Positions 35,702-57,267 of a DNA stretch of 64,000 nucleotides are shown one piece after another. The translations under genes and the position numbers were made by a program. How positions within the stretch are numbered: the first letter of the stretch is position 1; each line of letters opens with the position of its first letter. The notes under the pieces were generated by a model, which saw only the letters and a list, made by a program, of their open reading frames with translations, was not told where the DNA came from and made no database searches. Source of the DNA: Pelotomaculum schinkii (GTDB lineage Bacteria > Bacillota > Desulfotomaculia > Desulfotomaculales > Pelotomaculaceae). The DNA lies in contig NZ_QFGA01000001.1 in NCBI RefSeq assembly GCF_004369205.1, forward strand, positions 1,674,001 through 1,738,000, written 5' to 3'.

Positions 35702-35793
35702 GCTTATCAGCCTCCCGTAAATCATAAATATTGGCCCTGACGCCGCCAACATTGCACCGGAGACGGATGAAAATCTATTTCAACCGGCCTGTT

Positions 35794-36540: not shown

Positions 36541-36739
36541 CAACTCACCTTTTCATTTGTTTAACCCATTATCCCTGTCAGCAATGGGGATTTCAACCGC
36601 ACCCAGCGCGTCAGCCCCGGATTGCGGGGTATGCGCAACATTCGTTTTTAAGGAAAAAATGGTCCACCTGTACAATACTTTATCATGTATATTTCCTTTC
36701 GCCTTCCCCTATGCCATTTATTACAAAGCGCTCATATAC

Positions 36740-40973: not shown

Positions 40974-42536
40974 TTACTGCAAAATAACAGGATTGACACC
41001 GGTGTCATTGGTCAAATTATCAACAATGTAGACCTTGATCACATCGCCCGGCTGTACATTAAAACCGGCCTGGGCGATTTCAACCTGGTCAAAATCAGCT
41101 CTGGTGGCGTTAAGTGCAAGTTGGCTGCCGTTTCTAAAATGAGTAAAGACTACTGTTTCATTACCGCTATGGGAGATCACCGGCGTAATGCTGACCGCGA
41201 AGTATTTAAACCCGGTCACACCGTCATCAACGGTCATGGTATTGATACCGTCCGGGGTTGTCCCGGCAGTATAAGCAGGATCAGGCTGGGAAGAAAGCCT
41301 GTAGACAGGTCCCGGCTCTGTGATGTCGCCTTTGTTGATCATGTATCTTTCAATCAGTTCACCGGTTGATTGTTCTGATGTCAGGGTCAAGACATCACCC
41401 TCAATATCAATAACCTGGTAGTTGCTGCCGGTCTGTTCCACAGCGATGTAGGGAAATTCTCCGCCCCCGCCGTAAGTCTTGGAACCGGCATTACCCATCA
41501 CATAGACAATCCCGTACGAGGGTTCAGTCTGGACCTCCTCCTGGTAAATTGGATGGGTCCTCATATACTCATGCTGGTGCCCGACAAAAACCATATCCAC
41601 CCGGTTCTGTTCCAGAACCGGCACCCAATTGGCCCGGATGGACTTATCTATCCCCTTATAATCATAAGTGGCTGGATACGCGGGAATGTGAAAAACAACA
41701 AACTTCCACTTTTTTGTTGTGCCTTGCAGATCATTTTGCAGCCATTGTTTTGCTCCCTCGTCAGTATTTTTATTGCTGTTGAGCACCACGAAATGAGCAT
41801 TGCCGTAATCGAAGGAGTAAAACTCCTGCTTCAAACCTTCGGGACCGTTATCCGGCAAGGCAAAAAAATCTAAGTACATGTCTCCGTCGTGGTTGCCCAT
41901 AGCCGGCATCACCGGGATCCTGGAGAACAAAACTGTGGCAGCAGCAAGAAACTGTCCCCACTCTTCTTCATCGCTGTCGTTATCCGTCAAATCCCCGCCT
42001 AAAAGGGCAAACTTGATTTGGGGATAGGACTGATAAACCGCATCCAGCGTACTGCCCCATTCAGCATATCCGGACTGCACGTCGCCCATATACAGAAATG
42101 AGAATTCTTGCGTGTCCGAGGCAGTTGTAAAGGATAAGGGCCCGCTCCAGGCCTCTTCCCGCCCTACCTGGTAAACATATTTTGTCTCCGGGGTCAATCC
42201 AGTTATATTTACTTTGAACCTGTAATGGGTACTGTCAAATGCCGAGCATTCTGCATTCATTTCCTGGGCGGCGTCAAAATTACCGGCAAATTCATCTGCG
42301 CTGATGTACTGCACCCGGGCCGGCGAATTATCCGGCGTTAACCAGGTAATGGTCTGAGATGCAGCCGGATCAAGCGTCCAGGTCAGAATAATTTGCTCCG
42401 GCGCTGCGCTTTCCTCAGCAAGGGCAACCGGAGACAGAAACCAGCAGAAAAAAACCGCTAATACCATTAAGACTGGACACATAATCTTGCTTCTTACTGC
42501 CATATTTCTTTGGGAGTATCCAAATCCAGGGCTCAT
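40974..42536 (-). CDS. Secreted purple-acid-phosphatase-like metallophosphoesterase with a shared C-terminal domain
   Basis: A 520-residue secreted protein. It has a signal peptide (to about residue 40), a purple-acid-phosphatase N-terminal Fn3-like domain (45-135) and a calcineurin-like phosphoesterase domain (140-390). The metal motifs are MGDVQSG, GGDLTDN, GNHDGD, FHIPAYP and GHQHEY. The last 100 residues (about 415-520, AGTTPDGINTMTVDDGVTGF onward) are nearly identical to the end of the RCC1-containing protein at 44413. The substrate is unknown. Confidence 0.85.
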   Translation of the reverse strand: MSPGFGYSQRNMAVRSKIMCPVLMVLAVFFCWFLSPVALAEESAAPEQIILTWTLDPAASQTITWLTPDNSPARVQYISADEFAGNFDAAQEMNAECSAFDSTHYRFKVNITGLTPETKYVYQVGREEAWSGPLSFTTASDTQEFSFLYMGDVQSGYAEWGSTLDAVYQSYPQIKFALLGGDLTDNDSDEEEWGQFLAAATVLFSRIPVMPAMGNHDGDMYLDFFALPDNGPEGLKQEFYSFDYGNAHFVVLNSNKNTDEGAKQWLQNDLQGTTKKWKFVVFHIPAYPATYDYKGIDKSIRANWVPVLEQNRVDMVFVGHQHEYMRTHPIYQEEVQTEPSYGIVYVMGNAGSKTYGGGGEFPYIAVEQTGSNYQVIDIEGDVLTLTSEQSTGELIERYMINKGDITEPGPVYRLSSQPDPAYTAGTTPDGINTMTVDDGVTGFKYFAVSITPVISHSGNETVVFTHFRNGSQLALNATRADFDQVEIAQAGFNVQPGDVIKVYIVDNLTNDTGVNPVILQ

Positions 42537-42699: not shown

Positions 42700-44049
42700 T
42701 TATCGGTTCAGCGCATTGACTATAACTGTAACAGCTTCCGCCCTGGTGGCGTTACCCTGTGGCTGAATGGTGTTATCAGGATACCCTTTCATGATCCCGT
42801 TTTCCGTCACGGTGGCAATAGCCTCTCTGGCCCAGCCGGAAATGCTGCCGCTGTCGGAGAACTGAAGCTCTCCCGCAGCCGGGGCAAGTTTCGCGGCCTT
42901 GGCAATCATAACAGCCATCTGCTCGCGGGTAATCATATCATCCGGCCCGAAGGTATTGGAGTCATAGCCGTTGACCACGCCCGCAGCTGCCGCGGCCGCA
43001 ATGTAATCTTTAGCCCAGTGCCCGGCTGTATCCGCAAATGTTTTACCGTCTTGAGACGTCAGTTGGAACGCTTTAACCAGCACAGTGGCAAATTCGGCCC
43101 GGGTTATCGCGTTGTCAGGCTTGAAGTTGCCGTCGCTATAACCGCTGATAGCGCCGAGCCTAACCAATTGATTGATATTGTTCTCAGCCCAGTGACCGGC
43201 GATATCATTTAATGTGGGCTGCAGCGTGGGCTGCTCCTCCTGCTTGCTGGAAGCCAGTACGGCAAATTTGGTGAAGTGGTCCACCTGCACGGTTATGGTA
43301 TTGCCGGATACGGCGCCGCCGATGTTTACCCATTTGCCAAGGGTTTCGTCGTAGTAATGGACCGCCGGGGTCTCGCCCGGACTTAAGGAAGCTGGATCGA
43401 AAGTAAAAGTCAGGGTGACCGGCTTGTTGAAAGTATAAGTTTCATTGCCGTCTACTTTAAATTCGTAGACGGAGCCAAGCAGCTTGAAGCCTGCAGGAGT
43501 AGCTTGCGGGCTACTAACCTTCTGAATAGTAATGTCTACTTTAGCTGTGCCTGTTAAGGCGTTGGCCGGAATATTTACTGAAACATCACTGCCCAGGCTG
43601 ATTTTTCCACCGGCACCCGGGCTTACAGAGGCTTCTCCGGTAGTGCTGTTAACCGGTTGCGGAGTAGTAGATCCACCACCAGAACCACCAGAACTACTGC
43701 TGCTGGCGCCTACGTTAAGTCTCTTGTTGTCTACGTTGTCGCCTTCACCGGCAACAACTGTTAATGTGCCTGCAGCGCCTCCCGGGACGATGAAGTCTAT
43801 GCTGTAATTTCCGGTTGCATCTGATTTTGTTGTATCAAAATATACGATGTTTTTTGCCGCGTCTACTACTTTGAGGGGAACCCATGCGTTTGGTTCGGTT
43901 GTGCCTGAAGCTGTGACGCTTTTGTTAACTGACGCCGTAGTTTTACTTAACGACAGGGTGGTGTTTGGCGTGTTTGCCAGCGCCATAGCAGGAACACACA
44001 TCAGCAGCATTAACGCTATTTGGAGATATGCTACTATTCTGAGCTTCAT
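42700..44049 (-). CDS. Small S-layer protein: Ig-like domain, ZU5-like domain, three SLH
   Basis: A 449-residue secreted protein. A signal peptide (1-26) is followed by an Ig-like repeat (27-110, TTLSLSKTTASVNKSVTASG), a Ser/Gly linker, a ZU5-like domain (about 135-260) and three SLH repeats (about 270-449). The ZU5-like and SLH parts closely resemble the C-terminus of the 36797 protein. There is no molybdopterin-binding-like domain. AAGGAG lies 8 bases before the ATG at 44049. It may be a structural S-layer component. Confidence 0.85.
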   Translation of the reverse strand: MKLRIVAYLQIALMLLMCVPAMALANTPNTTLSLSKTTASVNKSVTASGTTEPNAWVPLKVVDAAKNIVYFDTTKSDATGNYSIDFIVPGGAAGTLTVVAGEGDNVDNKRLNVGASSSSSGGSGGGSTTPQPVNSTTGEASVSPGAGGKISLGSDVSVNIPANALTGTAKVDITIQKVSSPQATPAGFKLLGSVYEFKVDGNETYTFNKPVTLTFTFDPASLSPGETPAVHYYDETLGKWVNIGGAVSGNTITVQVDHFTKFAVLASSKQEEQPTLQPTLNDIAGHWAENNINQLVRLGAISGYSDGNFKPDNAITRAEFATVLVKAFQLTSQDGKTFADTAGHWAKDYIAAAAAAGVVNGYDSNTFGPDDMITREQMAVMIAKAAKLAPAAGELQFSDSGSISGWAREAIATVTENGIMKGYPDNTIQPQGNATRAEAVTVIVNALNR

Positions 44050-44412
44050 TTTCATCACTCCTTTTTACTTAAGCCTGTGCCGGGATAAGGCTAAGGGAAG
44101 TATCCAGCAAATCAACCAGCCGGCAATCCTCTTCGCCGTCACGAACACACGTGATTCGTTCTTTCATTAAATACTGTTCTTAAAATACTGTTCTTAAGGC
44201 TTTTTAAAGCCAATGGGTTTTTATCCAATTCTAAGACGGACACTTTTACAGTGGGAGCTTTTCCACGGTGAGGGCAGAGTCGTCCCCCACCGTGGTCTTG
44301 ATGTCCAGTTTTAGCTGGACAAGTTCACTTGTTCTTTCTATAAACCGTTTTGCAGCTTATATATTTTTGCAAAGGAGCTCATTTTTTGACTACAATATCC
44401 CATAACAGGTAT
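44050..44412. other. Intergenic region with several hairpins
   Basis: There is no gene. On the minus strand a hairpin TCCAGCTAAAACTGGA (about 44310-44325) and another, CCACGGTGGGGGACGACTCT with CCCTCACCGTGG (44259-44302), lie after the 44413 gene. I could not name a riboswitch class for them. Confidence 0.5.
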
Positions 44413-47400
44413 TTATTGTAAAATAATCGGGTTTAAGTCAATTGCGTTGGTTAAATTATCAACAATGTAAGCTTTGATCACGTCGCCCGATTGGACATTA
44501 AAACCGGCCTGGGCAATTTCAACCTGGTCAAAATCAGCTCTGGTGGCGTTAAGCCCGAGCTGGCTGCCGTTTCTAAAATGAGTAAAGATCACTGTTTCAT
44601 TACCGCTATGGGAGACTACCGGCGCAATATTGACCGTGAAGTATTTAAACCCGGTCACACCGTCATTAACGGTCATGGTATTGATGCCTTCCTGGGTCGT
44701 CCCCGCGGTATATGCATCATCAGCCTCAGGTGTAACTGTGTAGACCGGATTTGGTCCAGACGTTTCCTCTATCGTCTGCACTACGGCAGCGTCTTCGTAC
44801 CCTGCAGCCTTAACCACAACAGTGTAGTCTTTGGCTTCGGTAAACACATCTGCGGCAATGGTAATCACACCGGCAGAAACAGTATATTTACCGTCAGCCA
44901 GGGTTGCGCCGTCCACAGTGATTTCTGTGATGGCGCTACGCCAGTCAGCATCATCGGTAAAGGTGATATCTACCGCCTGGCCAACTGTATTGTCGCTGGT
45001 ATCTGCCTTTAAGACAGGCGCGGCAGGCTCTCCTCCAGTATCTACCGTATAGGTAAAACTGACAACATCGCTATCTGCTCGGCCTGGCCCAATAGCAATG
45101 GCCTTGATGGTAGTGTCCGCGGTTATTTTAATCGGCACATTTAATTCAGGCTGGTAATAGCTGGCGCTCTTGTTATACATGTTGCTGTTTACATCCGGGG
45201 TACTGCCATCCAGGGTATAGTAAATCTTAACTCCATCAAAAGCTGTATGTCCCAGTGTAACCTCGGTTCCCGGTGCAACCACGCCTTCTGCTACATCTGC
45301 CGTAACATTATCCCACTTCAGGGGTTGTTCTGTGAAAACAATAATCTCATTAACTTTTTTTACAAACCACGGTTTATTCTGTTCGGTAACAGCCCGCTGA
45401 CCCATGATCAACCGCAATCCGTTACTTTCCAGTGTATCCGTGGAGAGGATCGCCGGCACCAATACTTTACCGTTTGAAGAACCTTCCATCAAACCCGGGA
45501 AATAGTAACGGGGTTGTGCAAGCAGCTCATCTCTGGTAAAAGTCTTGGTAAGGCCGTCGGAGGCCTTGATGGTTATTAGTTTGGCTTCACCTTTTATTTG
45601 GGCCAGGTCCAGAATATCCTGCAGCTTTACTCCTTTAACATCAACAAACCCATTATCTTCAGCGGGATAGTTATTGATAGCGCTATAGCTGTGGGACACC
45701 TCCGGCAGCGCCAGGACCTGGCTTAGAGTAAGCTCAACGGCGGCAGGCACCCCATCACCGGTAATAGTAATAGCTAGCGCTTCTGCTGCGCCAATTGTCT
45801 GAGTCACTGTGGCATCATTGTATCCGGTGGCGCTGACCGTGATTTCGTAGTCTTCAGCCGCGGTGAACACGTCAGCGGTGATATTGATATTCCCTTCCGT
45901 AACCGTATACTGGTCGCTGGTTAAGGCACTACCGTTAACAGTGATACCGGTAATCGCCGCCCGCCAGGCCGCATCATCGGTGAAGGTCAGGTCGATGGAA
46001 TTGCCTGCCTTGTTGTCGGTGGTGTCGGCTGCCAATACCGGCGGCGCCTCGGGCTGGCCTTGGACTTGCATAGTTACCACCGAATCCGCGTAGCCCGCAG
46101 CTTTGAACGTAATGTCAAATTCCCCGGCTGCGGAAAGAACGCCGGCTGCGATGGTAATCTTTCCTTCACCAACTGTATAATCGAACTCTGTGAGACTCTT
46201 ATTGCCCACAATCACGCTGGTAATTGACTCTCTCCAGCCCGCAAAATCGGCAAAAGTCAGGTCTAAAGCTTCACCCGGGGCTATCACTCCGGCTGCCGGG
46301 GTAAGCGTCACGGGCGCCCGCTTAACCTGCGTGGGAACCAGCCTCTCAGAAGTTGTCCCATCGCCAAGTTTGCCTTTCGAATTATTCCCCCAGGCCCATG
46401 CGGTACCATCGGTCTTTAAAGCCTGCGAGTAGTTGGAACCGGCATTTAACATGGCAATACCGGCCTCTGGCCCGTAGAGCTTAATAGGTACTTTACTACC
46501 GTTATCATACCCCATCTTGCCGTTACCGAGTTGACCTTGACTATTGTTGCCCCAGACCCATAACGATCCGTCGGTCTGCAGGGCCATCGTGTGGTTATCC
46601 CCGGCCGTAATTGCTTTCACATCTGTTAGATCAGAAGCTTGAACCGGCACAAGACTTCTCATTATTTTAGTCAGGTCCAGATCTTTATTACCTAACTGTC
46701 CACTCGAAGCGAAGCCCCAGCCCCAGACCGTACCGTCCTCTTTAATTGCTAAAGAAAATCCGCTTCCGGCGGCAATGGCCTTGAAGACACCGGTAAGGCC
46801 GGTAGCCTGAACGGGCTTATTGCTATTCGTTTGGGTACCGTCACCCAATTGTCCTTCGCTATTTTTGCCCCAGGCCCAGACCGTGCCGTCGTTTTTAAGG
46901 GCCAGAGCATGCTCCTTACCGGCTGCAATAGCCTGGACATCAGTCAGGCCGTAGACCTGCTCCGCAACAGTTCTTGAACCTCCGGCGCCGATACCCAACT
47001 GTCCATAGCTATTTTTGCCCCAGGCCCAGACCGTACCGTCGTTTTTAAGGGCCAGAGAAAAACCGTCCCCGGCTGCAATAGCCTGGACCCCGGTCAATCC
47101 GTAAACCTGTTCCGGGACAGTCCTGGTTCCGGATGTACCGCTGACACCGTTGCCCAGCTGTCCATACAAATTATAGCCCCAGGCCCAAACCGTACCGTCG
47201 TCCTTCAGGGCCAAAGTATGGTTGTAACCGGGCGCCGCCGCCGTGACCTCCGTTAAGCTGGAGACCTGCACCGGTGTGTATTTAGTTTCAGTACTGCCGT
47301 CACCAAGCTTGCCCTGGGCGCCGTCACCCCAGGCCCAGACCGTACCGTCGTTCTTGATCGCGACAGTATGCCGATCTTTCCCGGCCACGTAAACCATGTC

Positions 47401-48393
47401 GCCTGCGCCGGCGGAGCCGAACGGGACCAGGTATTCTTTAGTGACGATCTCGCTGTCCGACCGGCCGGGACCGATGACGACGGCTTTGATGGTGGTGTCG
47501 CTGTTAAGGGGGCCGATTTTGTGGTTTATTTCGTCCAAATCATCGCTTCGCGACGACCACCAACGCATGGCAATCCAGTTATACATGGGGCTGTCTATGG
47601 TCGGGTCGCTGCCGTCCAGGGTGTAATGAACCTTGTCTTCATCGTCGAAGGGACTGTGCATTTCCACCATGGTCCCTGCGGGTACCTCTCCAGGCGCCGG
47701 ATTGACCGTGGGATTATCCCATTTGGGCACGGGATCGGTGAGCACCTCGATTTTTACTACCAATTTGGCAAACCTGGCGTTGGTCTGCTGGGTTACCGCC
47801 CGCTGCCCGTACAGCAAATGGTTTGCGTCCGAACGGCTAAAGTTGTCCGCAACCAGGATATCGTTATAACTTTGAGCAGAGAAACTTCTGTGCGCGATGA
47901 TGGTATCCACTAATACTTTACCCGACGGGTCACCGGGAAGATGGCCGGGAAGGCCGCTGCTCATAAAATTAGGGAAACGATACCGGGGGGCGTTTAATAA
48001 CTCCTCCACCGTAAAGGTAACTCTAAAATTGTCTCCGGAAGTAAATCTGATCTGTGTGGCTTCCGGCTTGAGTCCCCCGGCTAAATCAAGCAGGTCGGTC
48101 AGTTTGACGCCCTGCCCCCTGTACCAGCTCTTGGTGGGCCAGGTGTTAATAGTGCTGTAGATTACGTCTTGTTGTTGTAAATAAACCCCTTCTGATACTG
48201 ACTCCGTACCCCGGAGCTGGTTTTGGGTAATGGTTACGGGCACGGGGCCGTTCAGCCCGGGCCCCGATATTATAATGTCACCCCCGGCGGCCAGGGCGTC
48301 CGCGGGCGCCATCAGACTAACCGTACCGGCAAGCAACAGCACGCTGAAGACGGTCAGAAAAAGCTTAAATACCCAACTGCTCCTTATACGCAT
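44413..48393 (-). CDS. Giant surface protein: molybdopterin-binding-like domains, RCC1 propeller, Shr-like (DUF1533) domains
   Basis: A 1326-residue secreted protein. It has a signal peptide (1-37), a molybdopterin-binding-like domain (40-225) and a chitobiase-C/Fn3-assoc-like repeat (KVHYTLDGSDPTIDSPMYNW, 230-320). Seven RCC1 repeats (about 331-688, each near DGTVWAWG..GQLG) make a complete seven-blade propeller. Then come two DUF1533/Shr-like hemoglobin-interacting domains (690-865), a second molybdopterin-binding-like domain (875-1030), another chitobiase-C repeat, a third DUF1533 and the C-terminal domain shared with the phosphatase. The ATG at 48393 has AAGGAGG 7 bases upstream. It lies behind a Moco riboswitch. 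Confidence 0.82.
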   Translation of the reverse strand: MRIRSSWVFKLFLTVFSVLLLAGTVSLMAPADALAAGGDIIISGPGLNGPVPVTITQNQLRGTESVSEGVYLQQQDVIYSTINTWPTKSWYRGQGVKLTDLLDLAGGLKPEATQIRFTSGDNFRVTFTVEELLNAPRYRFPNFMSSGLPGHLPGDPSGKVLVDTIIAHRSFSAQSYNDILVADNFSRSDANHLLYGQRAVTQQTNARFAKLVVKIEVLTDPVPKWDNPTVNPAPGEVPAGTMVEMHSPFDDEDKVHYTLDGSDPTIDSPMYNWIAMRWWSSRSDDLDEINHKIGPLNSDTTIKAVVIGPGRSDSEIVTKEYLVPFGSAGAGDMVYVAGKDRHTVAIKNDGTVWAWGDGAQGKLGDGSTETKYTPVQVSSLTEVTAAAPGYNHTLALKDDGTVWAWGYNLYGQLGNGVSGTSGTRTVPEQVYGLTGVQAIAAGDGFSLALKNDGTVWAWGKNSYGQLGIGAGGSRTVAEQVYGLTDVQAIAAGKEHALALKNDGTVWAWGKNSEGQLGDGTQTNSNKPVQATGLTGVFKAIAAGSGFSLAIKEDGTVWGWGFASSGQLGNKDLDLTKIMRSLVPVQASDLTDVKAITAGDNHTMALQTDGSLWVWGNNSQGQLGNGKMGYDNGSKVPIKLYGPEAGIAMLNAGSNYSQALKTDGTAWAWGNNSKGKLGDGTTSERLVPTQVKRAPVTLTPAAGVIAPGEALDLTFADFAGWRESITSVIVGNKSLTEFDYTVGEGKITIAAGVLSAAGEFDITFKAAGYADSVVTMQVQGQPEAPPVLAADTTDNKAGNSIDLTFTDDAAWRAAITGITVNGSALTSDQYTVTEGNINITADVFTAAEDYEITVSATGYNDATVTQTIGAAEALAITITGDGVPAAVELTLSQVLALPEVSHSYSAINNYPAEDNGFVDVKGVKLQDILDLAQIKGEAKLITIKASDGLTKTFTRDELLAQPRYYFPGLMEGSSNGKVLVPAILSTDTLESNGLRLIMGQRAVTEQNKPWFVKKVNEIIVFTEQPLKWDNVTADVAEGVVAPGTEVTLGHTAFDGVKIYYTLDGSTPDVNSNMYNKSASYYQPELNVPIKITADTTIKAIAIGPGRADSDVVSFTYTVDTGGEPAAPVLKADTSDNTVGQAVDITFTDDADWRSAITEITVDGATLADGKYTVSAGVITIAADVFTEAKDYTVVVKAAGYEDAAVVQTIEETSGPNPVYTVTPEADDAYTAGTTQEGINTMTVNDGVTGFKYFTVNIAPVVSHSGNETVIFTHFRNGSQLGLNATRADFDQVEIAQAGFNVQSGDVIKAYIVDNLTNAIDLNPIILQ

Positions 48394-48660
48394 GGAATTC
48401 CCTCCTTGTTTCAACAAATAATAGTCACACTGCTGAGAAACATTTACAACAAACCACTTCTCCTCTCTCAACTCGCACATCAGAGTAGCCCCAAAGACTT
48501 AATAGTTTTCAGCCTCCGTTACACCATCTGCCATATGGCATCAGTCCAGCATTCTCAACACCCCCTTCGTCAAATGGCCTGTCGGCGCTGAACCCCTGTA
48601 CTTTGGAGAAAAAACCGGTCACCTCCTGCTTGTCCCGGCTACGGGTAGCCGGAAAGATTT
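48394..48660 (-). other. Long leader between the riboswitch terminator and the 44413 gene
   Basis: About 270 nt lie between terminator and gene. It contains a hairpin CCGGCTACCCGTAGCCGG (48637-48654), a small palindrome TGCCATATGGCA and a possible 37-codon ORF at 48509-48622. That ORF starts with GTG; AGGAGG lies directly against it, which is too close for normal initiation. Confidence 0.45.
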
Positions 48661-48667
48661 GTAAAGC

Positions 48668-48708
48668 AAAAAAGCTTTGTCCCATTGGTTGAAAGGGACA
48701 AAGCTTTA
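48668..48708 (-). terminator. Expression-platform terminator of the Moco riboswitch
   Basis: On the minus strand AAAGCTTTGTCCCTTTC and the complementary GGGACAAAGCTTT, followed by TTTTG, form a strong intrinsic terminator right behind the riboswitch aptamer. Confidence 0.85.
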
Positions 48709-48721
48709 AAGTCCGGCAGCT

Positions 48722-48819
48722 TATGTTTCCTTTCCTCAATGGGAGGCACGGCAGTTTCCCGGCGTACCCTGTGAGGCCGATAACCATAGTCTCCCTTAGG
48801 TCATGCGGCTCGGAAAAAC
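48722..48819 (-). promoter_or_regulatory. Molybdenum/tungsten cofactor (Moco/Tuco) riboswitch
   Basis: The minus strand has the conserved elements of the MOCO RNA motif in order: TTTTCCGAGCCGC, CGGCCTCACAGGGTACGCCG, GGGAAACTGCCG, TGCCTCCCATTGAGGAAAGG. GGTACG and CGTGCC pair to form the inner stem, and the GCCTCCC...GGAAAGG block is as in known moa leaders. The class binds molybdopterin-type cofactor. The terminator lies immediately downstream, so ligand binding should control the surface-protein gene at 44413-48393. Confidence 0.82.
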
Positions 48820-48857
48820 ATACTTATTTTTGTGAACTCAGTCATGCATATTTACTT

Positions 48858-49373
48858 CTACTGCAGTTCCAGGCTTGTGAGAAAATTGGTAAAGCGCTGT
48901 CCGAACTCATCCTGGTAAATAATGATGCGCATAGCGCCCTCCCCGCCGGTCTTGGTTTTTAACGGTTCACCGTGGTCGGCGTAAACAATGAACACATTAT
49001 TCGGCCGCAGGACTTCAGACATGTTCACCCCGGAGGTGTAGTTGTCGATGCCTCTGGTTATGATCCTGGTACATTTTTGGGACAGACCCGGATCGATGCT
49101 GTTTAAGGCGTCCAGCAGCGGGGCGCCTGTAAACTCATGTTTGGTCATGCCGGAGGTGGACTGAATCACCATTTTCTTCTGCGCCGCCGGCAGTTTCTGA
49201 AGATCGGCAACTGTCAGGACGCCGATAACATTATCTCCTGTCTTAACTAAGATTTGGCCTTCCTGCAGGTTTTCATCGCCGCGGTTCAAAAACGCAAATA
49301 CCACAATAATAATGACCAGTAATGCAATCACCGCATAGAGGATCTTCTTTTGGTCAACAGCCTTACTCTCCAT
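48858..49373 (-). CDS. Membrane-anchored molybdopterin-binding-like single-domain protein
   Basis: A 171-residue protein with one N-terminal helix (residues 11-31) and an extracytoplasmic domain of the sulfite-oxidase-like fold. VLTVADLQKLPAAQKKMVIQ is followed by KHEFTGAPLLDALNSIDP and a VYADHGEPL segment, matching the pattern of PF00174-like domains. The Mo-coordinating Cys is not evident. GGGAGGG lies about 8 bases before the ATG at 49373. It follows the NapH-like gene and is the last gene before the riboswitch. Confidence 0.7.
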   Translation of the reverse strand: MESKAVDQKKILYAVIALLVIIIVVFAFLNRGDENLQEGQILVKTGDNVIGVLTVADLQKLPAAQKKMVIQSTSGMTKHEFTGAPLLDALNSIDPGLSQKCTRIITRGIDNYTSGVNMSEVLRPNNVFIVYADHGEPLKTKTGGEGAMRIIIYQDEFGQRFTNFLTSLELQ

Positions 49374-49453
49374 CAACAATACCCTCCCAAGCATAGCCGG
49401 TTTTGGCCGGATGAGACAGGAGAACCATCCCCTTGCCTGTCTTAAACCTTTGG

Positions 49454-50329
49454 TTACATCCTGAAGCCTTTATTCTGGTCCAGCTTTTTCTTTAGCCTAA
49501 GCGTTTTTTCGCCAATACCTGCCTTGATGCCCAACAGGCCGTCCCGGCAACCCGCAAAACACTGCATGCAGCGGACGCATTCCGGACTATTGGGGTTGTT
49601 GTATATGTCTATCCCCAACTCACATTGCTCTTGACAGCCTCCGCACTTTTTGCAGTTATCCCTATTGATTTCGAACCTCAGCAGGCTTAGCCGGTTCAGG
49701 AGGGCATAGACCGCTCCGAGCGGGCAAATAAACCTGCAAAAAGGCCTGAAGATGATCATGGACGGCAAAACCGCGACGGCAAGCAAAACCAGCTTCCACT
49801 TGAACAAGACACCTGCCGTTGTCATCAGGGAAGGTTGTAACGCCATTAAGGGCAGGTACGCTTCCAGCGTCTCCACCGGGCATAAATACTTGCAGAAGGT
49901 CGAGCCGCTCAAATAAGTCAGACCAAGGGCCGGGAACAGGAGCACAAACAGGACCAGCACGACGTATTTTAAATAGACGAGTTTTATTAACTTCCGGCCG
50001 GGCCGGTACTTGGGCAGCGGTATTTTATATAACAGTTCCTGCATGAAGCCAAAGGGACAGAGCCAGCCGCAAAGGAACCTGCCCAGCAGTCCCCCCAGCA
50101 AAAGCAGCAGCCCGGAGGTAACCATAAGGAGCAGATAATTGCCGAATATAAGCGAGCTCTGGATCAGTCCCAGCGGACACGAGCTAAAAGCGCCGGGGCA
50201 GGAAGTGCAGTTCAGTACCGGCACACAGAGCCTTTTCAGAGGCCCGTTGTACGCCGTACCCTGCAGAAAACCGGCAATATGTCCGTTTATAAGCGCCGCT
50301 GTAATGGTCTGGACAACCCTTCTTTTCAA
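49454..50329 (-). CDS. NapH/YccM-like membrane ferredoxin
   Basis: A 291-residue membrane protein with about five helices. Two CxxxCP-type motifs lie at membrane edges (GWLCPFGFMQELLY and FICPLGAVYAL), and two 4Fe-4S motifs are near the C-terminus (CKKCGGCQEQCELGID and CVRCMQCFAGC). Proteins of this family (NapH, NosR C-terminal part, RdhC-like) pass electrons from quinol or flavin donors to exported redox enzymes. It lies 40 bp after the FMN-binding lipoprotein gene, consistent with a shared electron path. Confidence 0.9.
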   Translation of the reverse strand: MKRRVVQTITAALINGHIAGFLQGTAYNGPLKRLCVPVLNCTSCPGAFSSCPLGLIQSSLIFGNYLLLMVTSGLLLLLGGLLGRFLCGWLCPFGFMQELLYKIPLPKYRPGRKLIKLVYLKYVVLVLFVLLFPALGLTYLSGSTFCKYLCPVETLEAYLPLMALQPSLMTTAGVLFKWKLVLLAVAVLPSMIIFRPFCRFICPLGAVYALLNRLSLLRFEINRDNCKKCGGCQEQCELGIDIYNNPNSPECVRCMQCFAGCRDGLLGIKAGIGEKTLRLKKKLDQNKGFRM

Positions 50330-50369: not shown

Positions 50370-50993
50370 CTACTGTATTTCCGTGACAAACCCTTCTACC
50401 TTCAGGGGTACCGGCTCAGCTTCCTCCCCCAGGAGCAACTCGCGGTAGGTCCCCATTGCGGCGTTGACCCCGTTGATCACTGCCTGGGAGCTTACTGTAG
50501 CGCAGGTAATCTGGATAATATCATTTGGCCGGGACGGCTCCAGAACCACTCTGTTTAAATAGGCGCCGGCGCTTTTGTTGTTAAACCGGTCCAAAAACCA
50601 TTCTTTGGTCAGACTATCTCCTCCGTACAAGGGTGTCTCATCATGCTGCAATACTCTGATCCCCAGCAACTCGTTTTTTTCGCCATCTATTAAAACAAAT
50701 AGGTCTATCGCGCTCCTGTAGCCCAGAGGACTTGATAAAAAAGCATAATTTTTCTGCTCGCCGCAAGTTATTTCGTAAGCATTTTTTACGGCAGGAAACT
50801 TTTCTTTAACTTCCTCCGTCAGTTCGATGCCCTTTATAGCTTCGTCTGCGATTTCCTGCTCGCTTCCCAGCAACTCCTGCAGGGCTTCCTTCTGGGGAGG
50901 CGTCATTTTTTTTGAATTACCGGAAGAGCACCCGGTCACGGTTAAAACCAGGATAGCTGCAGCAGCAAACAGCAAGACTACGCATTTTCGCAC
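50370..50993 (-). CDS. FMN-binding lipoprotein (RnfG/NosR-like domain)
   Basis: A 207-residue lipoprotein (lipobox TVTGC, Cys 22). A C-terminal FMN-binding domain contains ITCATVSSQAVINGVNAA, which corresponds to the S/T-G-A-T-x-S/T flavin motif with Cys replacing Gly. The acceptor Thr is present, so ApbE (33457) may flavinylate it. The start is GTG after GGGAG. It probably forms an exported redox pair with the NapH-like protein. Confidence 0.82.
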   Translation of the reverse strand: MRKCVVLLFAAAAILVLTVTGCSSGNSKKMTPPQKEALQELLGSEQEIADEAIKGIELTEEVKEKFPAVKNAYEITCGEQKNYAFLSSPLGYRSAIDLFVLIDGEKNELLGIRVLQHDETPLYGGDSLTKEWFLDRFNNKSAGAYLNRVVLEPSRPNDIIQITCATVSSQAVINGVNAAMGTYRELLLGEEAEPVPLKVEGFVTEIQ

Positions 50994-51295: not shown

Positions 51296-52234
51296 TCATT
51301 CCACATCGTAATTAAATATTGCTACCTGGCTGTTGTGTTTCCCGAAACCAATTGCAATAGCTTTAATGGTAACAGTCTGGTTAACCTGAATTGGCTTATT
51401 CAATTCCGGCCGGAAGTAGGAAGTGCTGGGATTATAAAGCAAACTCTTCGCATCCGGCTCACTCCCGTCAAGGGTGTAATATATCTTGACGAGATCCTGT
51501 TCAGGATGGCTTAAAACGACCCCTGTGCCCGGCTTTACCTTCCCGGGCGCAGGTTCGGCCCGGACCGCGCCCCACTGGCCCGGCGGCGTTGTCAATACTT
51601 CGATGGTGGTCACACCTTTGACGAAAGCGGCGGTGGCCGCATCGTTCAATCCTGTCTGGCCAAAAAGCAGGCGAAGTTTACCACTGGCCGCCTCACTCAA
51701 ATTACTGGTGTCCTCCTGATACCCCCAGGCCAGGATCATAGGAACTTCCACTGCTCCCTCCGCACTGCCTTTCAACAGATCCGGATAGCAAAAACGCTTT
51801 TCCTCCAGCTGCTCTCTGGTAAAACTGGCGTTATAACCGTCCGCGGCCTTGAAGATGATTGTTTGCGCATCCTCTTTGATCCCGGCCTTTTGCAGCAGGT
51901 GGGTGAGCTTCACACCCTTACCGACAATAAATTTTTTGGCCGGCCAGTTGTTTACGGCCGAGTAGCAGGCGCCGGCCAGAGCGTCTTCCATGCTCTTCAG
52001 TTCGTCGGGGGTAAATTTGGTTTCACGCTCTACACCGTTTCCCGTAATCGTCAGCATGTCCGGTTCACCGCCGGGGTTGCCGGTTTCAAGGCCGGTACTG
52101 CCCGGCGCTATACCGGCCGTCTGCGGGGTCGTTTCCCGCTTCTGGTCCTGACAGCCTGTGATCAGGCTTAAGCATGCGATCAGCAAAACCGCCGCGAATC
52201 CTATTGTTTTAAGCAGCCTATTCATCCATAGCAC
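51296..52234 (-). CDS. Lipoprotein with molybdopterin-binding-like and chitobiase-C domains
   Basis: A 312-residue lipoprotein (lipobox SLITGC). A molybdopterin-binding-like domain (about 60-215: LTITGNGVERETKFTPDEL, YSAVNNWPAKKFIVGKGVKL, LLFGQTGL) is followed by one chitobiase-C/Fn3-assoc repeat (KIYYTLDGSEPDAKSLLYNP, about 240-310). I prefer the GTG at 52234, with AGGAGA 8 bases upstream; an ATG two codons earlier and another three codons later are alternatives. It is anchored on the outer membrane face. Confidence 0.75.
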   Translation of the reverse strand: MLWMNRLLKTIGFAAVLLIACLSLITGCQDQKRETTPQTAGIAPGSTGLETGNPGGEPDMLTITGNGVERETKFTPDELKSMEDALAGACYSAVNNWPAKKFIVGKGVKLTHLLQKAGIKEDAQTIIFKAADGYNASFTREQLEEKRFCYPDLLKGSAEGAVEVPMILAWGYQEDTSNLSEAASGKLRLLFGQTGLNDAATAAFVKGVTTIEVLTTPPGQWGAVRAEPAPGKVKPGTGVVLSHPEQDLVKIYYTLDGSEPDAKSLLYNPSTSYFRPELNKPIQVNQTVTIKAIAIGFGKHNSQVAIFNYDVE

Positions 52235-52442
52235 TGTCATCTCTCCTGAGGCAGTATTTTGGGGGAACTTTCTCGTGCGCATTTCATCTGGGACATTCTC
52301 TAATTGGGGACATTCCCCGGCAGAGGTGTGTCCCCTTCCCGCTGGCGGAGGTGTGTTCTTTTGTTGCGAAGAATGATGCTGCTACTATGTGAATTGTTCT
52401 TCTGACGTCTAAGGTCCGGCGTCCGAAACGTATCTTCTTTCC

Positions 52443-53558
52443 TTAAACAGAACGGATGCGCATCAAGTTATCAATGAGGCTCAGCCCTTCCCCTTCCGTC
52501 CAGACTACCGGATAGGAGCCGTCATCTTGGGTAAGCAGAATTCCTTTGTTAAGGTCCTGCCCGCTTACCTTAACGCTATTGCCGTCTGTACCTACTAGCT
52601 CGAACTGCTTATTGTCAATATCCGTCAGTCCGACTTCCTCCAGAATTGCCCGTAAAGAAATCCCTTTTTGAGCTTCTATCTGCTGTTGCCCGGTTAATTC
52701 CACTATTTCCTCAGGGAAAAATGCCGCGTCCGCATTGGTGGAAAACCAGGCGATATGCATGACGTTCATACCCAGCTTAATATTGGGCGCCATGTTCATC
52801 GGCGCGCCCTCACCTGTAACTTTGATGTAATAGCGCTGGCTGACCATGTTTATGGCTTCATTCTTCTTGAAGCCATCCGATGATTTCATCGTAAAGAAGG
52901 CCTTGCTGTTGACATTGTCAAAGCGGGAAAAGATCTGCGCCAGTTCAATGGCGTCGTCTTTACTGCCGTAATACTCATACTGGTAAGGTTCAATCCCTTC
53001 CGCTAGGTTTTTAAAAACCCAAACGGAATTGATATCTTTCTCCGGAATCTCTTTGTACAAAATAATCCTGTCGACCATCTTCACCCAGTAGGGGCCGAAC
53101 TCCCCCTGCACGCAGAGCCGCGCGGGGCGCAATTCGTCCGGCAGTTCACTTTGCCCGTCGATGGTTAAAGCCAGGATCAGCTGGCGTTCAGCCATGATCT
53201 CCGGCGTTACCAGACAATAATAATCATCCTTTCCGGCAAAGCCGATGCCCTTATAATCCTGATAATTGATGCCCGCGTGTTCCAGCACATCCTTGACCTC
53301 AGGACCGGTTGCTTTAAACTCTTCCAGAAGCCCGGTGGTACGGGTGAGACTGGCGTCAAGTTTTTGTTGGGGAAGCGCCCGCATTTCTCCTACAGTGATC
53401 TCTTTAGGCTGGTCTATGTCGCCCTCGACGATAACATTCTGGCTTTCATATTCCGGATTGCGGGTAGGAGTGTTCTGCTGGGCGCATCCGGTCAGGGTGA
53501 TCCATATCAGGAGCAAAACCAGATAAAGATATATACCCTTTCCGCTCTTAAGCAACAC
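52443..53558 (-). CDS. Lipoprotein with two divergent molybdopterin-binding-like regions
   Basis: A 371-residue lipoprotein (lipobox TLTGC). The first half (about 40-175) has VEGDIDQPKEITVGEMRALPQ, VKDVLEHAGINYQDYKGIGF and PARLCVQGEFGPYWVKMVDRI, where the last is like the LRLVVPGxxGxxxVKWV block of genuine YedY/sulfite-oxidase domains. The second half (about 210-371) is a weaker repeat (YIKVTGEGAPMNMAP, LRAILEEVGL). It has no chitobiase-C repeat. The start is GTG with AAAGGGGGG upstream. Confidence 0.68.
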   Translation of the reverse strand: MLLKSGKGIYLYLVLLLIWITLTGCAQQNTPTRNPEYESQNVIVEGDIDQPKEITVGEMRALPQQKLDASLTRTTGLLEEFKATGPEVKDVLEHAGINYQDYKGIGFAGKDDYYCLVTPEIMAERQLILALTIDGQSELPDELRPARLCVQGEFGPYWVKMVDRIILYKEIPEKDINSVWVFKNLAEGIEPYQYEYYGSKDDAIELAQIFSRFDNVNSKAFFTMKSSDGFKKNEAINMVSQRYYIKVTGEGAPMNMAPNIKLGMNVMHIAWFSTNADAAFFPEEIVELTGQQQIEAQKGISLRAILEEVGLTDIDNKQFELVGTDGNSVKVSGQDLNKGILLTQDDGSYPVVWTEGEGLSLIDNLMRIRSV

Positions 53559-53734: not shown

Positions 53735-54631
53735 CTATTGAATTCTGTATCGAAACTCAGCTATATCACTGTCATATTTGCCGAAACCCTTAACTAAAAC
53801 CTTGATGGTCGTGTCCCGCTCGATTTTGATGGGCTTGTTCAATTCAGGCTGGTATGTGCTGGGATTATAGAGCGTGCTTTGTTCGGTCGGCGTGGAGCCG
53901 TCCAGCGTATAATACATCTTCACCTTGCCGGTTTCCTTATGCTGCAGTTTTACCGTATCCCCGGCGGCAACATATTCCGTCTGGGGAAAGACGGTAGCTT
54001 TCTCCCATTTTCCGGGGTCTTCCACAGTCACCAGGATCTCCCTGACGCCTTTGACAAAAGTGTGATTGGCCTGCTCGTTAACACATGCCTGCGGCATGAT
54101 CAGGCATAAATCGTCCGCCCTGGCCTCGCTTAGATTATCGCTGTTTTCCACGTACTCATAAGCGATAACCGGCTCAACCGGCTGGGCGCCGGCCGGATCT
54201 CCCGCCATTACTTCCGGAAAATAATACCGCGGGGTATCCAACAACTGCTCCCGTGTAAAGGACCACTCGAAATCGTCTTTGCCCTTAACCGTAATGCATT
54301 TTGCCTCATCTTTAATGCCGGCGGCTTGCAGTACTGCCGCTAATTTGACTCCCCTGACCGCATACTTCTTTGCTGCCGGCCAGTTGTTGATGGTGGAATA
54401 GACGTGATCAAAGCGGGCGCCCGGCAACTTCAGCATCTCTTCCAGAGTCAGCCGGGGTTCTTTCGTCACACCGTTGCCGGTAACCACAACCGCCTTGTCG
54501 CTCTCATTGCTGCTGACCTTATCCTGCTGCGCACCCCCATTATTGCAGGCGGCAGTCAGGAGAATGCACAGCATGAGAAGAAGGCCAACCGGAAGGTAAA
54601 TTTTTTTAGAGAGAAAACTTTTCACTTTCAT
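53735..54631 (-). CDS. Lipoprotein with molybdopterin-binding-like and chitobiase-C domains
   Basis: A 298-residue lipoprotein (lipobox LTAAC). A molybdopterin-binding-like domain (VVTGNGVTKEPRLTLEEML, YSTINNWPAAKKYAVRGVKL, DDLCLIMPQACVNEQ) occupies about 45-200 and a chitobiase-C repeat (KMYYTLDGSTPTEQSTLYNP) about 220-290. GGGAAG lies 8 bases before the ATG at 54631. It is a close relative of the lipoprotein at 51296. Confidence 0.76.
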   Translation of the reverse strand: MKVKSFLSKKIYLPVGLLLMLCILLTAACNNGGAQQDKVSSNESDKAVVVTGNGVTKEPRLTLEEMLKLPGARFDHVYSTINNWPAAKKYAVRGVKLAAVLQAAGIKDEAKCITVKGKDDFEWSFTREQLLDTPRYYFPEVMAGDPAGAQPVEPVIAYEYVENSDNLSEARADDLCLIMPQACVNEQANHTFVKGVREILVTVEDPGKWEKATVFPQTEYVAAGDTVKLQHKETGKVKMYYTLDGSTPTEQSTLYNPSTYQPELNKPIKIERDTTIKVLVKGFGKYDSDIAEFRYRIQ

Positions 54632-54707
54632 TGATTTCACTTCCCGTCACGCCATAATAAAGCTGCAGAATGATAAGCGCCGGCATACGTTTGAGGACAT
54701 TCTTCAA

Positions 54708-56249
54708 CTATTTATTCAACGCATTTATAATTACCGTCACAGCCTCGGCTCTCGTCGCACTGCCTCCGGGCCGGATGGTGTTATCCGAGTAACCCTTCAT
54801 AATCCCGTTTTCAGTAGCGGCGGCAATGGCCTCCCCGGCCCATGCGGAAATACTGCCGCTGTCGGCAAACCGGGGCGCTTCCGCGGCCGGCGCCAATTTG
54901 GCGGCCTTCACGATCATCACGGCCATCTGTTCGCGGGTAATCAGGTCGTCCGGACCAAAAGCACCATTGGCATAACCATTGACAAGACTGTTTGCCGCTG
55001 CCGAGGCAATGTAGTCCTTGGCCCAGTGCGCCGCTGTATCAGTAAAAGTCTTGCCGTCATTATCCTCGAGCTTGAACGCCTTCACCAGCACGGCGGCGAA
55101 CTCGGCCCTGGTAATGGTGCTGTCGGGCTTGAAACTGCCGTCGGGATAGCCGCTGATGCAGCCCTGCGCCACCAGCTTATGAATGTTGTCCAGGGCCCAG
55201 TGGCCTGCGACGTCATTTAAGTTTACTGTCTGCTGCGGCTCTTCTTCTTTATTTTGCTCTCCTGTACCGGGTGCGGGTCCTTCTGTTCCGGGTTCAGACT
55301 CAGCCCCTGCGACCTGATAGGTGAAGGTGACGACATCGCTGTCGTACTTACCGGGACCAATCGTTATTGCCTTGATGACTGTATCTTCATTAATAGGTCC
55401 TACCGGGCAATTCACTTTGCCCAAATCATCCGCCCGCGCCGACCACCACCGTCTGGCAATCCAGTTATACATCGGGCTGTTCAAGGTCGGGGTGCTGCCG
55501 TCCGTGGTGTAATAAACCTTATCGTCATCCATGTGGGCGTTGCTCAGCGCTATCATAGAACCTGCGGGCGCCTCTCCACTAACCGGATTCGCCTGCGGAG
55601 CGTCCCATTTTTCCGGTTCTGCTGTGAGCACCTCGATCTTATTGACATATTTGCTGAACAAATTACCATTCTGCTCGGTAACTGCCCGCTGCCCCAGCAT
55701 CAGCAGCAGTGCATTCAAGTCGTTCATATAGTCCGGGTTATCACTGCCTTCAACACTTTCCAGAGCGAGTATAGGCTCCACCTCTTTTGGGTTCGCTGCA
55801 GAGCCGGGAATATGCCCGTCGCCATCTTTTGCGGTATTACCCTTAAGGCCAGGGAAATAGTACCTTTTATCCTCCAGTAATTCTTTTACGGTCAGGTTTA
55901 CTACGTAACCGTCGCTCGAAGTAAATCTAATCAGCCTGGCCTCCTCGGTCATACCCGCCTGCTTAAACAGGTCTCTCAACTTGACTCCCTTCCCGACATA
56001 CCATTTCTTGGTAGGCCAGGTGTTGATGGCGCTGTACACATGCTGGTATTGTTTCATTGACTCAAGCTGTTCCCTGGTTAAGGTCAAAGGCGTGGTTACA
56101 CCATCGCCCGTGATTTCGAGGGTATCCGTACCGGCGGCCAGGGCCGTTGCGGGCGTCATCATGTTAGCCATACAGAAAAGTAAAAGACCCAGTATGATTA
56201 TTAAACAACCATAAAACCAATTCTTCCGCTGCAGACTTATAGCTTGCAC
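54708..56249 (-). CDS. S-layer-anchored molybdopterin-binding-like protein
   Basis: A 513-residue secreted protein. It has a signal peptide (to about residue 38), a molybdopterin-binding-like domain (about 40-210, YSAINTWPTKKWYVGKGVKL, LLLMLGQRAVTEQNGNLFSK), a chitobiase-C repeat (KVYYTTDGSTPTLNSPMYNW) and a Pro/Glu linker. Three SLH repeats follow (about 340-513). The start is GTG at 56249 with AAAGGAGAG upstream. It sits between the DUF2149 gene and the lipoprotein genes. Confidence 0.82.
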   Translation of the reverse strand: MQAISLQRKNWFYGCLIIILGLLLFCMANMMTPATALAAGTDTLEITGDGVTTPLTLTREQLESMKQYQHVYSAINTWPTKKWYVGKGVKLRDLFKQAGMTEEARLIRFTSSDGYVVNLTVKELLEDKRYYFPGLKGNTAKDGDGHIPGSAANPKEVEPILALESVEGSDNPDYMNDLNALLLMLGQRAVTEQNGNLFSKYVNKIEVLTAEPEKWDAPQANPVSGEAPAGSMIALSNAHMDDDKVYYTTDGSTPTLNSPMYNWIARRWWSARADDLGKVNCPVGPINEDTVIKAITIGPGKYDSDVVTFTYQVAGAESEPGTEGPAPGTGEQNKEEEPQQTVNLNDVAGHWALDNIHKLVAQGCISGYPDGSFKPDSTITRAEFAAVLVKAFKLEDNDGKTFTDTAAHWAKDYIASAAANSLVNGYANGAFGPDDLITREQMAVMIVKAAKLAPAAEAPRFADSGSISAWAGEAIAAATENGIMKGYSDNTIRPGGSATRAEAVTVIINALNK

Positions 56250-56321
56250 TGTTAAACTCTCCTTTCTGTTGTATGCCAGCAAGATCCCGGGCGGTTACAT
56301 CACGAATACGGACGAACCGGA

Positions 56322-56636
56322 TTATTCACCGGTCAGCATAAACAGCTGCCCCGTAGCGGGATCCTTGTAAACCGTGCCCATCTTTTCGTAAAGTTTGCCC
56401 TCCCCTTGCGTTTCGATCAAATCGTCCCTGATCTCCGGTGTCCCGGTCACCTCCTGACCGCGATTAAGGTTGATGCGCTCCCCTACCCGGCTCAGGTCTA
56501 CGTTCCAGTGTATGACCAGAGAAAGCATCAGACCGCAGGCAAAAACCAGCATGGCATCTACAATATTGATGGCGCCCTCGAGGGGACTGACATCTTCAGG
56601 TACTCTGCGTCTACTGCTCCTCAATCCGCCGTCCAC
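56322..56636 (-). CDS. DUF2149 protein, ExbD-like single-helix partner
   Basis: A 104-residue protein with one N-terminal-half helix (residues about 21-42). The stretch INIVDAMLVFACGLMLSLV lines up with the ExbD/TolR membrane segment (IDVMLVLLIIFMV), including the essential Asp at its start. The rest is a short soluble domain. The GTG at 56636 has GGAGGTG about 7 bases upstream and overlaps the ExbB-like gene by 26 bp, implying tight coupling. The role is inferred as the proton-coupled partner of the ExbB-like protein. Confidence 0.8.
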   Translation of the reverse strand: MDGGLRSSRRRVPEDVSPLEGAINIVDAMLVFACGLMLSLVIHWNVDLSRVGERINLNRGQEVTGTPEIRDDLIETQGEGKLYEKMGTVYKDPATGQLFMLTGE

Positions 56637-57267
56637 GGGCAAACACCTCCAGCAAGCTTTCCATCAAGGCCTCAAGAGAACTCAAGTATCCCTCATACCA
56701 TCTTTTCCGCAGCCGGGAGACGGCATAGGCGACGCCGGCGGCTGCCAGGCCGATCACGGTCGCGTCAAAGGCGGTGAGCAGTGATTCCGCCAGGGTCTTG
56801 GTGTCGCCCTGGCCCAGGGCGATCATACCGGGTCCCAGTGGAATCAGAGTAGCCATCAACCCCAACATGGGTCCCAACCGCGCCACCAGGTCAGTTCTGT
56901 TGGTGATCCTGGCATAATGCAGCTCCTCGGCGGCAAGCAGCTTGCGGGCCAGCGCCTGCAAGGAAGCGGCCGGTAAACTGCCGTGCCTGATTAGCTCGCC
57001 GAGAGCTGCTTTCTGTCGCCTGAACAGGCCGCTGCTCTCAATACCGCGCATGATCGCCCCGGCATCCTTACCCTGGAAGAATTCCACCATCTCCGGCACA
57101 TTGACCTTCATCTTGCGCCGCTCGGTGAGGACCTCCACCAGCAGGCCGCCCAACTCTATTACCGAAACCGCCAACAACAATAGCAGAATGACAATGGCAG
57201 GCGCCAGTAAACCGGACGAAATAGTATGCATCGTATCTCTGAGCGGCGTCAACATATCAAGGGTCAC
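56611..57267 (-). CDS. MotA/TolQ/ExbB proton-channel family protein
   Basis: A 218-residue membrane protein with an N-terminal helix (residues 20-45) and a cytoplasmic loop with helical coiled segments. Two more helices carry the family motifs: LGPMLGLMATLIPLGPGM (about 133-150) and LLTAFDATVIGLAAAGVAYAV (about 165-185). Family members form pentameric channels that use proton or sodium force with an ExbD-type partner. The start overlaps the preceding surface-protein gene by 4 bp (ATGA), which suggests a functional unit with it. Confidence 0.9.
   Translation of the reverse strand: MTLDMLTPLRDTMHTISSGLLAPAIVILLLLLAVSVIELGGLLVEVLTERRKMKVNVPEMVEFFQGKDAGAIMRGIESSGLFRRQKAALGELIRHGSLPAASLQALARKLLAAEELHYARITNRTDLVARLGPMLGLMATLIPLGPGMIALGQGDTKTLAESLLTAFDATVIGLAAAGVAYAVSRLRKRWYEGYLSSLEALMESLLEVFARGRRIEEQ

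Follow-up and report, generated by a model that had tools for sequence, protein, structure and literature searches.

A P3-lacking Moco/Tuco riboswitch inside a gene run for sulfite-oxidase-fold surface proteins and an ECF transporter in Pelotomaculum schinkii

Closest described systems

Moco RNAs (RF01055) without the P3 stem were described by Regulski et al. (2008, PMC2408646) as accompanying tungsten-cofactor genes, those with P3 being the Moco-sensing type, and the highest number of copies given there was at least 15, in Syntrophomonas wolfei. According to the passages of that paper on this species, P3-lacking RNAs before genes for a "putative Moco-utilizing sulphite oxidase" were possible exceptions, and a triple copy was found before a transport/MPT operon (PMC2408646). 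The S. wolfei RNAs and the loci analysed here are alike in their aptamer, terminator platform, tandem copies and downstream genes of the sulfite oxidase type (PMC2408646). However, the genes in our loci lack Cys at the ligand place and a twin-Arg signal, several of the domains are carried on SLH proteins, and the locus includes ECF and ExbB genes, with the switch internal to the gene run. The present loci may explain the S. wolfei sulphite oxidase cases; no literature linking S. wolfei, sulfite oxidase and the S-layer was found.

The secreted PruR protein has a sulfite oxidase fold, lacks Cys and binds pterin, as reported in PMC13259868. PruR (7kom, 7kos and 7rkb) and the proteins with sulfite-oxidase-fold domains of the locus (hereafter, sx domains) thus share an exported fold of this type without the Mo-ligating Cys. 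PruR signals to DcpA, whereas here there are many copies, several on SLH proteins, together with transporter genes, and no DcpA or DTB-type regulator domain was present among the locus proteins scanned. These transporter genes resemble those of ECF transporters with a PF09819 S-component and CbiQ, which we take to be of the YkoE type, in encoding an S-component, two ATPases and a T-component, but they differ from them in the control by a Moco riboswitch and in that, in two relatives, the S-component carries a fused Oxidored_molyb-like domain. The Isd/NEAT heme system is a wall-anchored relay to an importer, and the system proposed for the locus would be similar to it in this respect. A pair of ExbB and DUF2149 genes is described in the Porphyromonas gingivalis heme operon hmuYRSTUV (PMC10434189), which resembles the locus in the adjacency of these two genes and in their association with a surface cofactor-binding protein (PMC10434189). 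However, a TonB-dependent receptor and CobN are absent among the locus proteins scanned, and both the fold and the predicted cofactor are different.

No bacterial importer for the Mo/W cofactor or molybdopterin is described in the open-licence literature searched. There is one speculation about type 11 secretion proteins, in the text of PMC12282271, and cofactor uptake reactions were termed unrealistic in a modelling study of Escherichia coli (PMC3423039). Transfer of mature Moco from bacteria to a different organism is reported for Caenorhabditis elegans (PMC9793310).

The riboswitch and its expression platform

The window analysed is a 64,000-nt stretch of P. schinkii DNA (contig NZ_QFGA01000001.1); coordinates without a prefix are window positions. 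A preliminary description, made from the sequence alone, proposed a Moco/Tuco riboswitch with a strong terminator in front of a gene for a secreted 1326-residue protein, and suggested scoring with the RF01055 covariance model as a check. The cmscan search of the whole window against 4227 Rfam families (E-value 2.2e-12 on this basis) yielded an RF01055 match on the minus strand, at 48827–48711 (48711..48827), which covered the full model (positions 1–135) with a score of 61.6 bits, above the gathering cut-off of 36. Both the identification and the gene arrangement stand. The RNA adds a further member to this known class. A chance match was rejected on the basis of this score, the stability of the leader relative to shuffles and the paired changes in the leader alignment.

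The P3 stem is absent from this aptamer, its positions being deleted in the RF01055 alignment, and P3 was also judged by eye to be absent from all 19 copies scoring above the cut-off in the P. schinkii genome. Under the subtype rule of Regulski et al. (2008), the predicted ligand is therefore the tungsten cofactor (Tuco), and the sequence points to a P3-lacking aptamer of the tungsten-cofactor type. Given the 19 copies genome-wide, the aptamer at 48827–48711 is one member of a large regulon. Among the matches listed for relatives at E 0.001, there were at least 31 in G074 and at least 30 in G020. The products of genes behind the P. schinkii copies include enzymes (an aldehyde ferredoxin oxidoreductase, an aldehyde dehydrogenase, proteins of the xanthine dehydrogenase and molybdopterin oxidoreductase types and the small subunit of a NiFe hydrogenase), FdhE, tungstate transport proteins like TupA and TupB, and two secreted proteins: the 1326-aa target and a 1490-aa subtilase/Kelch protein. 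The copy before the latter gene (L018:3051–7523) scored 63.9 bits (L018:2788–2911, plus strand) and has a hairpin 3' of the aptamer; a very large subtilase/RHS-like ORF follows the subtilase/Kelch gene. Another copy (66 bits; L014:13190–13307, minus strand; C1:1751190) has no clear gene close behind it on the same strand, an ORF on the plus strand being located there. Tandem or triple copies were found at L012:3211–3540 and 10954–11291, L015:11768–12090 and L048:7127–7593, and the terminators of the tandem copies of this genome have a similar aptamer-complementary arm. Other regulatory RNAs in the window include four Na+ riboswitches (RF03071; minus strand, 24398–24456, 26493–26552, 26766–26825 and 27069–27128), three of them in a row, and a T-box leader (2930–3192, minus strand, 117.8 bits).

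The aptamer is followed immediately, on the same strand, by an intrinsic terminator (48668..48707) composed of a 13-pair hairpin (48707–48671; –20.0 kcal/mol) and a U-run (48673–48668), as the preliminary description had indicated. A simple terminator scan did not pick up this hairpin, because only loops of 3–8 nt were permitted. The leader folded better than its dinucleotide-shuffled counterparts (z –3.32, with 1 of 200 shuffles equally good). The 3' part of the aptamer, CCCAUUGAGGAAAGG (48743–48729), is complementary to CCUUUCAACCAAUGGG of the terminator loop and 3' arm (48696–48681), and the two form a predicted antiterminator (48681..48743, minus strand). This is the structure obtained in the unconstrained fold (–58.1 kcal/mol), as compared with –56.1 kcal/mol for the aptamer plus terminator, and the two mutually exclusive states of the leader are therefore near-balanced in energy.

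The antiterminator duplex has an energy of –20.8 kcal/mol, versus a mean of –9.3 kcal/mol for shuffled terminators, none of 300 of which was as strong; these shuffles preserve base content only. For the leaders at the same position in G016, G020, G002 and G001, the duplex energies were –21.7, –17.9, –21.2 and –23.2 kcal/mol, matched by 0, 4, 1 and 0 of 300 shuffles, respectively. Mutually exclusive terminator/antiterminator complementarity is thus present in the P. schinkii leader and in these four. Of the 57 leaders compared, six had no terminator according to our script and many others had a weak hairpin or complementarity not above that of shuffles; the 11 leaders aligned were picked from this set because they share the terminator/antiterminator platform. 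In this alignment, the aptamer plus terminator contained 23 cells changed on both sides (9.2 ± 2.5 expected; 0 of 500 shuffles) and 10 pairs with both-side changes (6.1 expected; 7 of 500 shuffles), and the terminator pairs were kept in 96.5% of cells, whereas the number of further pair types did not exceed that of shuffles (111 of 500). The covariation of the antiterminator was not beyond that of shuffles, with one pair changed on both sides (reached by 41 of 500) and 93.6% of cells paired (128 of 500). The forced terminator folded better than the forced antiterminator in seven of the 11 leaders, including G020 and G002, the only two among the five same-position leaders; the antiterminator won in the other four, including that of P. 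schinkii. Given this complementarity between the aptamer's 3' part and the terminator, binding of the ligand is expected to bring about termination, and we therefore predict from sequence an OFF switch, its direction in the cell being inferred.

The locus and its relatives

The riboswitch lies inside an operon-like gene run on the minus strand and another RF01055 copy stands at its head. This copy (L014:2112–2232, 47.7 bits) is located beyond the window edge, 733 nt before the gene for the ECF S-component (L014:794–1378, PF09819), which is followed by the first of two ECF ATPase genes (L014:24–743), the second ATPase gene (63285..63944) and that of the T component CbiQ (62541..63272, PF02361), so the run holds a full ECF set (S, PF09819; two ATPases, PF00005; T, PF02361). 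Further upstream, two TupA-like genes are found behind yet another RF01055 copy. After CbiQ come the genes for a surface protein that combines SLH with two sx domains and HID (59059..62475) and for a protein with an sx domain, Big_2 and a Pro/Glu-rich stretch (57264..58967), the latter overlapping the gene for a MotA/TolQ/ExbB-like proton channel (56611..57267, PF01618). A C-terminal membrane anchor was considered for the 57264..58967 product and rejected, the hydrophobic stretch being weak (19-mer mean of 1.27, not the maximum). The DUF2149 partner of ExbB (56322..56642, PF09919) is followed by an SLH surface protein with an sx domain (54708..56282), an exported sx-domain protein (53735..54640), an Oxidored_molyb/sx lipoprotein (52443..53558; PF00174, E 1.3e-12), an sx-domain lipoprotein (51296..52282), an RnfG-like FMN-binding exported protein (50370..50993; PF04205, with TIGR01947 below its cut-off) bearing a VTGC lipobox-like motif by eye that does not match the lipobox pattern of our script, and a NapH-like polytopic ferredoxin (49454..50329; PF12801, with TIGR02163 below its cut-off). 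The last gene before the riboswitch encodes a membrane-anchored Oxidored_molyb/PruR-like protein (48858..49394, PF00174), for which the best PDB sequence match was PruR 7kom (E 0.0076).

The riboswitch begins 30 nt past the stop codon of this gene. A simple promoter scan found no minus-strand sigma-70-like site in 48300–49500, which is consistent with an internal attenuator, although as evidence this is weak. The target gene (44413..48393) starts at an ATG at 48393 behind AAGGAGGG and encodes 1326 aa, as initially proposed, the longest ORF at this place being 1355 aa. Its secreted product contains two sx domains, RCC1 repeats, HID domains and a C-terminal domain shared with other exported proteins; a Pfam scan found no SLH domain, and there is no Cys in the mature protein. 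The genes that follow encode an SLH-domain surface protein (42700..44058, PF00395), a secreted protein that resembles purple acid phosphatases and shares the C-terminal domain of the target (40974..42536; PF16656, PF00149) and a surface protein bearing both SLH and Oxidored_molyb domain(s) (36797..40756; PF00395 and PF00174, E 9.7e-18), in which a Cys was seen by eye near the expected place. The shared domain of about 115 aa (P0001 residues 1239–1355 and the C-terminus of the 40974–42536 product) is very well conserved across exported proteins of the cluster that otherwise differ, and is perhaps a surface-sorting or docking domain. Genes with a TrmO_N domain are found beside the locus (34862–35752 and 35794–36543) and its paralogues (L079:9430–10296 and L083:8653–9552), one of these genes also having an FmdE match, and in several places a 249-aa protein without Pfam match is nearby.

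The AlphaFold2 model of the sx domain at 47713–48285, built from 33 sequences, had a pLDDT of 93.4, and its structural matches included sulfite dehydrogenase 2blf, with Z 13.4 and an rmsd of 2.7 over 133 residues, and two entries for pterin-binding PruR, 7kom with Z 12.5 and the neopterin-containing 7rkb with Z 12.2. The model therefore suggests that the sx domains of the target are structurally closest to sulfite dehydrogenases and secreted pterin-binding PruR. In sequence comparisons, PF00174 was matched at E 0.01 by 27 of the 33 members but not by P0016, and a sequence-only PDB search with the sx profile gave weak matches only (best E 0.061). Conserved motifs of the domain are Y-S-x-x-N and G-Q-R. 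Among 128 well-covered domains of 209 hits, the residue at the position that we take, by the spacing in YedY and not by structure alignment, to be that of the Mo-ligating Cys was Ser in 120, Thr in seven and Phe in one. The preliminary description counted the target as neither a Moco-synthesis nor a Mo-enzyme gene; this is to be corrected in that its domains, although without the metal-ligating Cys, are of the Oxidored_molyb type, with the sulfite oxidase fold, and the target is not unrelated to Moco. None of the 12 exported proteins tested had a twin-Arg pattern, one of them (57264) having an RR pair. Moco enzymes are usually folded before being exported by Tat, and the sx proteins are therefore unlikely to leave the cell loaded with cofactor; their sequences suggest export without an inserted cofactor and proteins other than classical Mo enzymes.

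The sx domain was detected (E 1e-15) in at least 27 of the 113 genomes searched in the class, including that of P. schinkii. In 32 related loci from 25 genomes, each bounded by the outermost sx, ECF S, ExbB, DUF2149, P0005 or FMN gene with a margin of 1 kb, we found 27 RF01055 copies, versus 2.80 expected from the density in each genome (genome sizes rounded, tandem copies counted singly). At least one copy was present in 15 of these loci, and 17 had no copy within their bounds. The count covers neither the carriers G048 and G112 nor five locus fragments (L065, L066, L067, L068 and L071), of which L066 and L068 hold RF01055. In 13 of the 25 genomes, the closest downstream gene of a copy belonged to the surface genes of the locus set, and in nine a copy started –1 to 49 nt past the stop codon of the preceding locus gene. 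In G021, a triple RF01055 lies just outside the locus bounds before an ApbE gene, and a copy also precedes an ApbE gene in G073. Homologous loci thus carry the leader, as the search suggested in the preliminary description was to establish, with compensatory changes in the aptamer and terminator. The proposed tie between the surface cluster and the Mo/W-cofactor status of the cell therefore stands, given the covariance-model score, the conserved leaders and the sulfite oxidase/PruR fold, and this fold independently bears out the reading of the cluster domains as cofactor-linked.

The P. schinkii genome contains two paralogous loci of the sx/ExbB-DUF2149/ECF type (C1:576651–622646 and C1:1635975–1663688; L079–L083, L021 and L069), in which no Rfam riboswitch exceeded the cut-off, an RF01055 match of 21 bits at C1:1647303 not being counted. 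The riboswitch-free loci, including these two, indicate that the module is not tied to the RF01055 signal alone, and the two paralogues are possible sister systems for other ligands. In two relatives, a single polypeptide consists of an S-component ending in an Oxidored_molyb-like domain: G023 (PF09819, E 2.3e-21; PF00174, E 6.5e-4) and G015 (PF09819, E 1.2e-17; PF00174, E 0.0043), the PF00174 scores of both being below the Pfam cut-off. The G015 gene is located 88 nt behind an RF01055 copy; its ORF had an sx-profile match in one count and none in another, and Pfam supports this fusion weakly.

A putative surface system for cofactor acquisition

The occurrence of RF01055 in an operon with surface-protein and vitamin-type importer genes suggests that the cell may take up the cofactor, or the components from which it is made, from its surroundings. 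Our preferred explanation, to which we give an even chance, is that the locus is a riboswitch-attenuated acquisition system for the tungsten/molybdenum pterin cofactor or its pterin/metal precursors. At low cofactor levels, the aptamer's 3' part would pair with the loop and 3' arm of the terminator, and transcription would continue into the gene for the large surface protein and those behind it; when cofactor is bound, the aptamer would close, the terminator would form and transcription would stop. The Sec-type exported domains of the sulfite oxidase/PruR fold, several of them on SLH proteins, would capture the ligand, the ExbB/DUF2149 channel and the NapH/FMN electron chain would drive energisation or reduction at the cell surface, and the ECF transporter would import the ligand. 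Computation establishes what the RNA is, how terminator and antiterminator are built, the fold, the genes present and the conservation, and from these we infer the ligand of the sx domains, the transport and its substrate. The fusions in G023 and G015 support acquisition, as does the ExbB–DUF2149 pair shared with the P. gingivalis heme operon, and the neighbouring TupA-like genes, themselves preceded by an RF01055 copy, also favour uptake. On the other hand, free Moco is labile, which counts against acquisition, as do the 17 loci without an RF01055 copy inside, the lack of antiterminator covariation beyond shuffles, the seven of 11 leaders in which the terminator folds better, the missing PF00174 match of P0016, the 733 nt between the head copy and the S-component gene and the lack of an SLH domain in the target. 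Loss of moaA, as a sign of import need, was not seen in most genomes: moaA was detected in 56 of the 60 genomes searched, including that of P. schinkii, some of the four genomes without a match being incomplete. An import need is therefore not evident, and import would be supplementary.

The surface proteins could instead be extracytoplasmic Mo/W redox enzymes receiving electrons from the NapH-like, FMN-binding and, in relatives, ApbE proteins, with the riboswitch matching their amount to the cofactor supply. The sulfite oxidase fold, the NapH/RnfG-like genes of the loci, ApbE in two of the relatives tested, the single 533–536-aa ORFs of relatives with both FMN-binding and sx/P0005 matches, the Cys seen by eye in the Oxidored_molyb domains of the 36797 protein and the Mo/W enzymes preceded by other RF01055 copies are all in keeping with such a role. 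We nevertheless consider it unlikely, since the predicted OFF logic would turn an enzyme off when its own cofactor is abundant and is better suited to uptake, the expected ligand place carries Ser in 120 of 128 domains and Cys in none, the mature target has no Cys, twin-Arg patterns are lacking in all 12 proteins, and an ECF importer and ExbB would have no place. Capture of oxyanions (tungstate or molybdate) or of another metal, rather than of a pterin cofactor, would fit the adjacent genes for TupA-like binding proteins under the same riboswitch family, the phosphatase gene of the cluster and the naming of the S-component family in Pfam for cobalt transport. It seems quite improbable, because the fold is one that binds pterin or Moco, the S-components of two relatives carry a domain of this family as a fusion, and ABC-type tungstate genes already serve the oxyanion. 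Surface pterin sensing or adhesion of the PruR kind, with the riboswitch coupling biofilm or syntrophic contact to cofactor status, would suit the large repeat-rich SLH proteins and has a precedent in PruR, described as a secreted pterin sensor of this fold without Cys (PMC13259868), but it is very unlikely, as transporter genes, and no GGDEF, EAL or kinase domains, were found among the locus proteins scanned. That a genuine riboswitch stands before the surface gene by accident, or regulates read-through only, accords with the 17 of 32 loci without a copy inside but is hardly credible in view of the 27 copies versus 2.80 expected and of their recurrent placement.

Within the acquisition reading, a more specific proposal, which we advance as tentative and on balance doubtful, is that surface arrays of Cys-less receptors with the sulfite oxidase fold, working with a motor formed by ExbB/DUF2149 and with an ECF transporter of their own, its S-component being fused to a receptor-like domain in some species, scavenge the intact W/Mo pterin cofactor or molybdopterin that neighbours release, under nested Tuco OFF riboswitches, which would be a new kind of nutrient acquisition. 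If this were the case, the paralogous riboswitch-free loci would be sister systems for other pterins. More generally, if the acquisition reading is true, cofactor sharing in anaerobic communities would become open to direct tests, for which the receptor domains, the transporter and, as a natural reporter, the riboswitch would be available.
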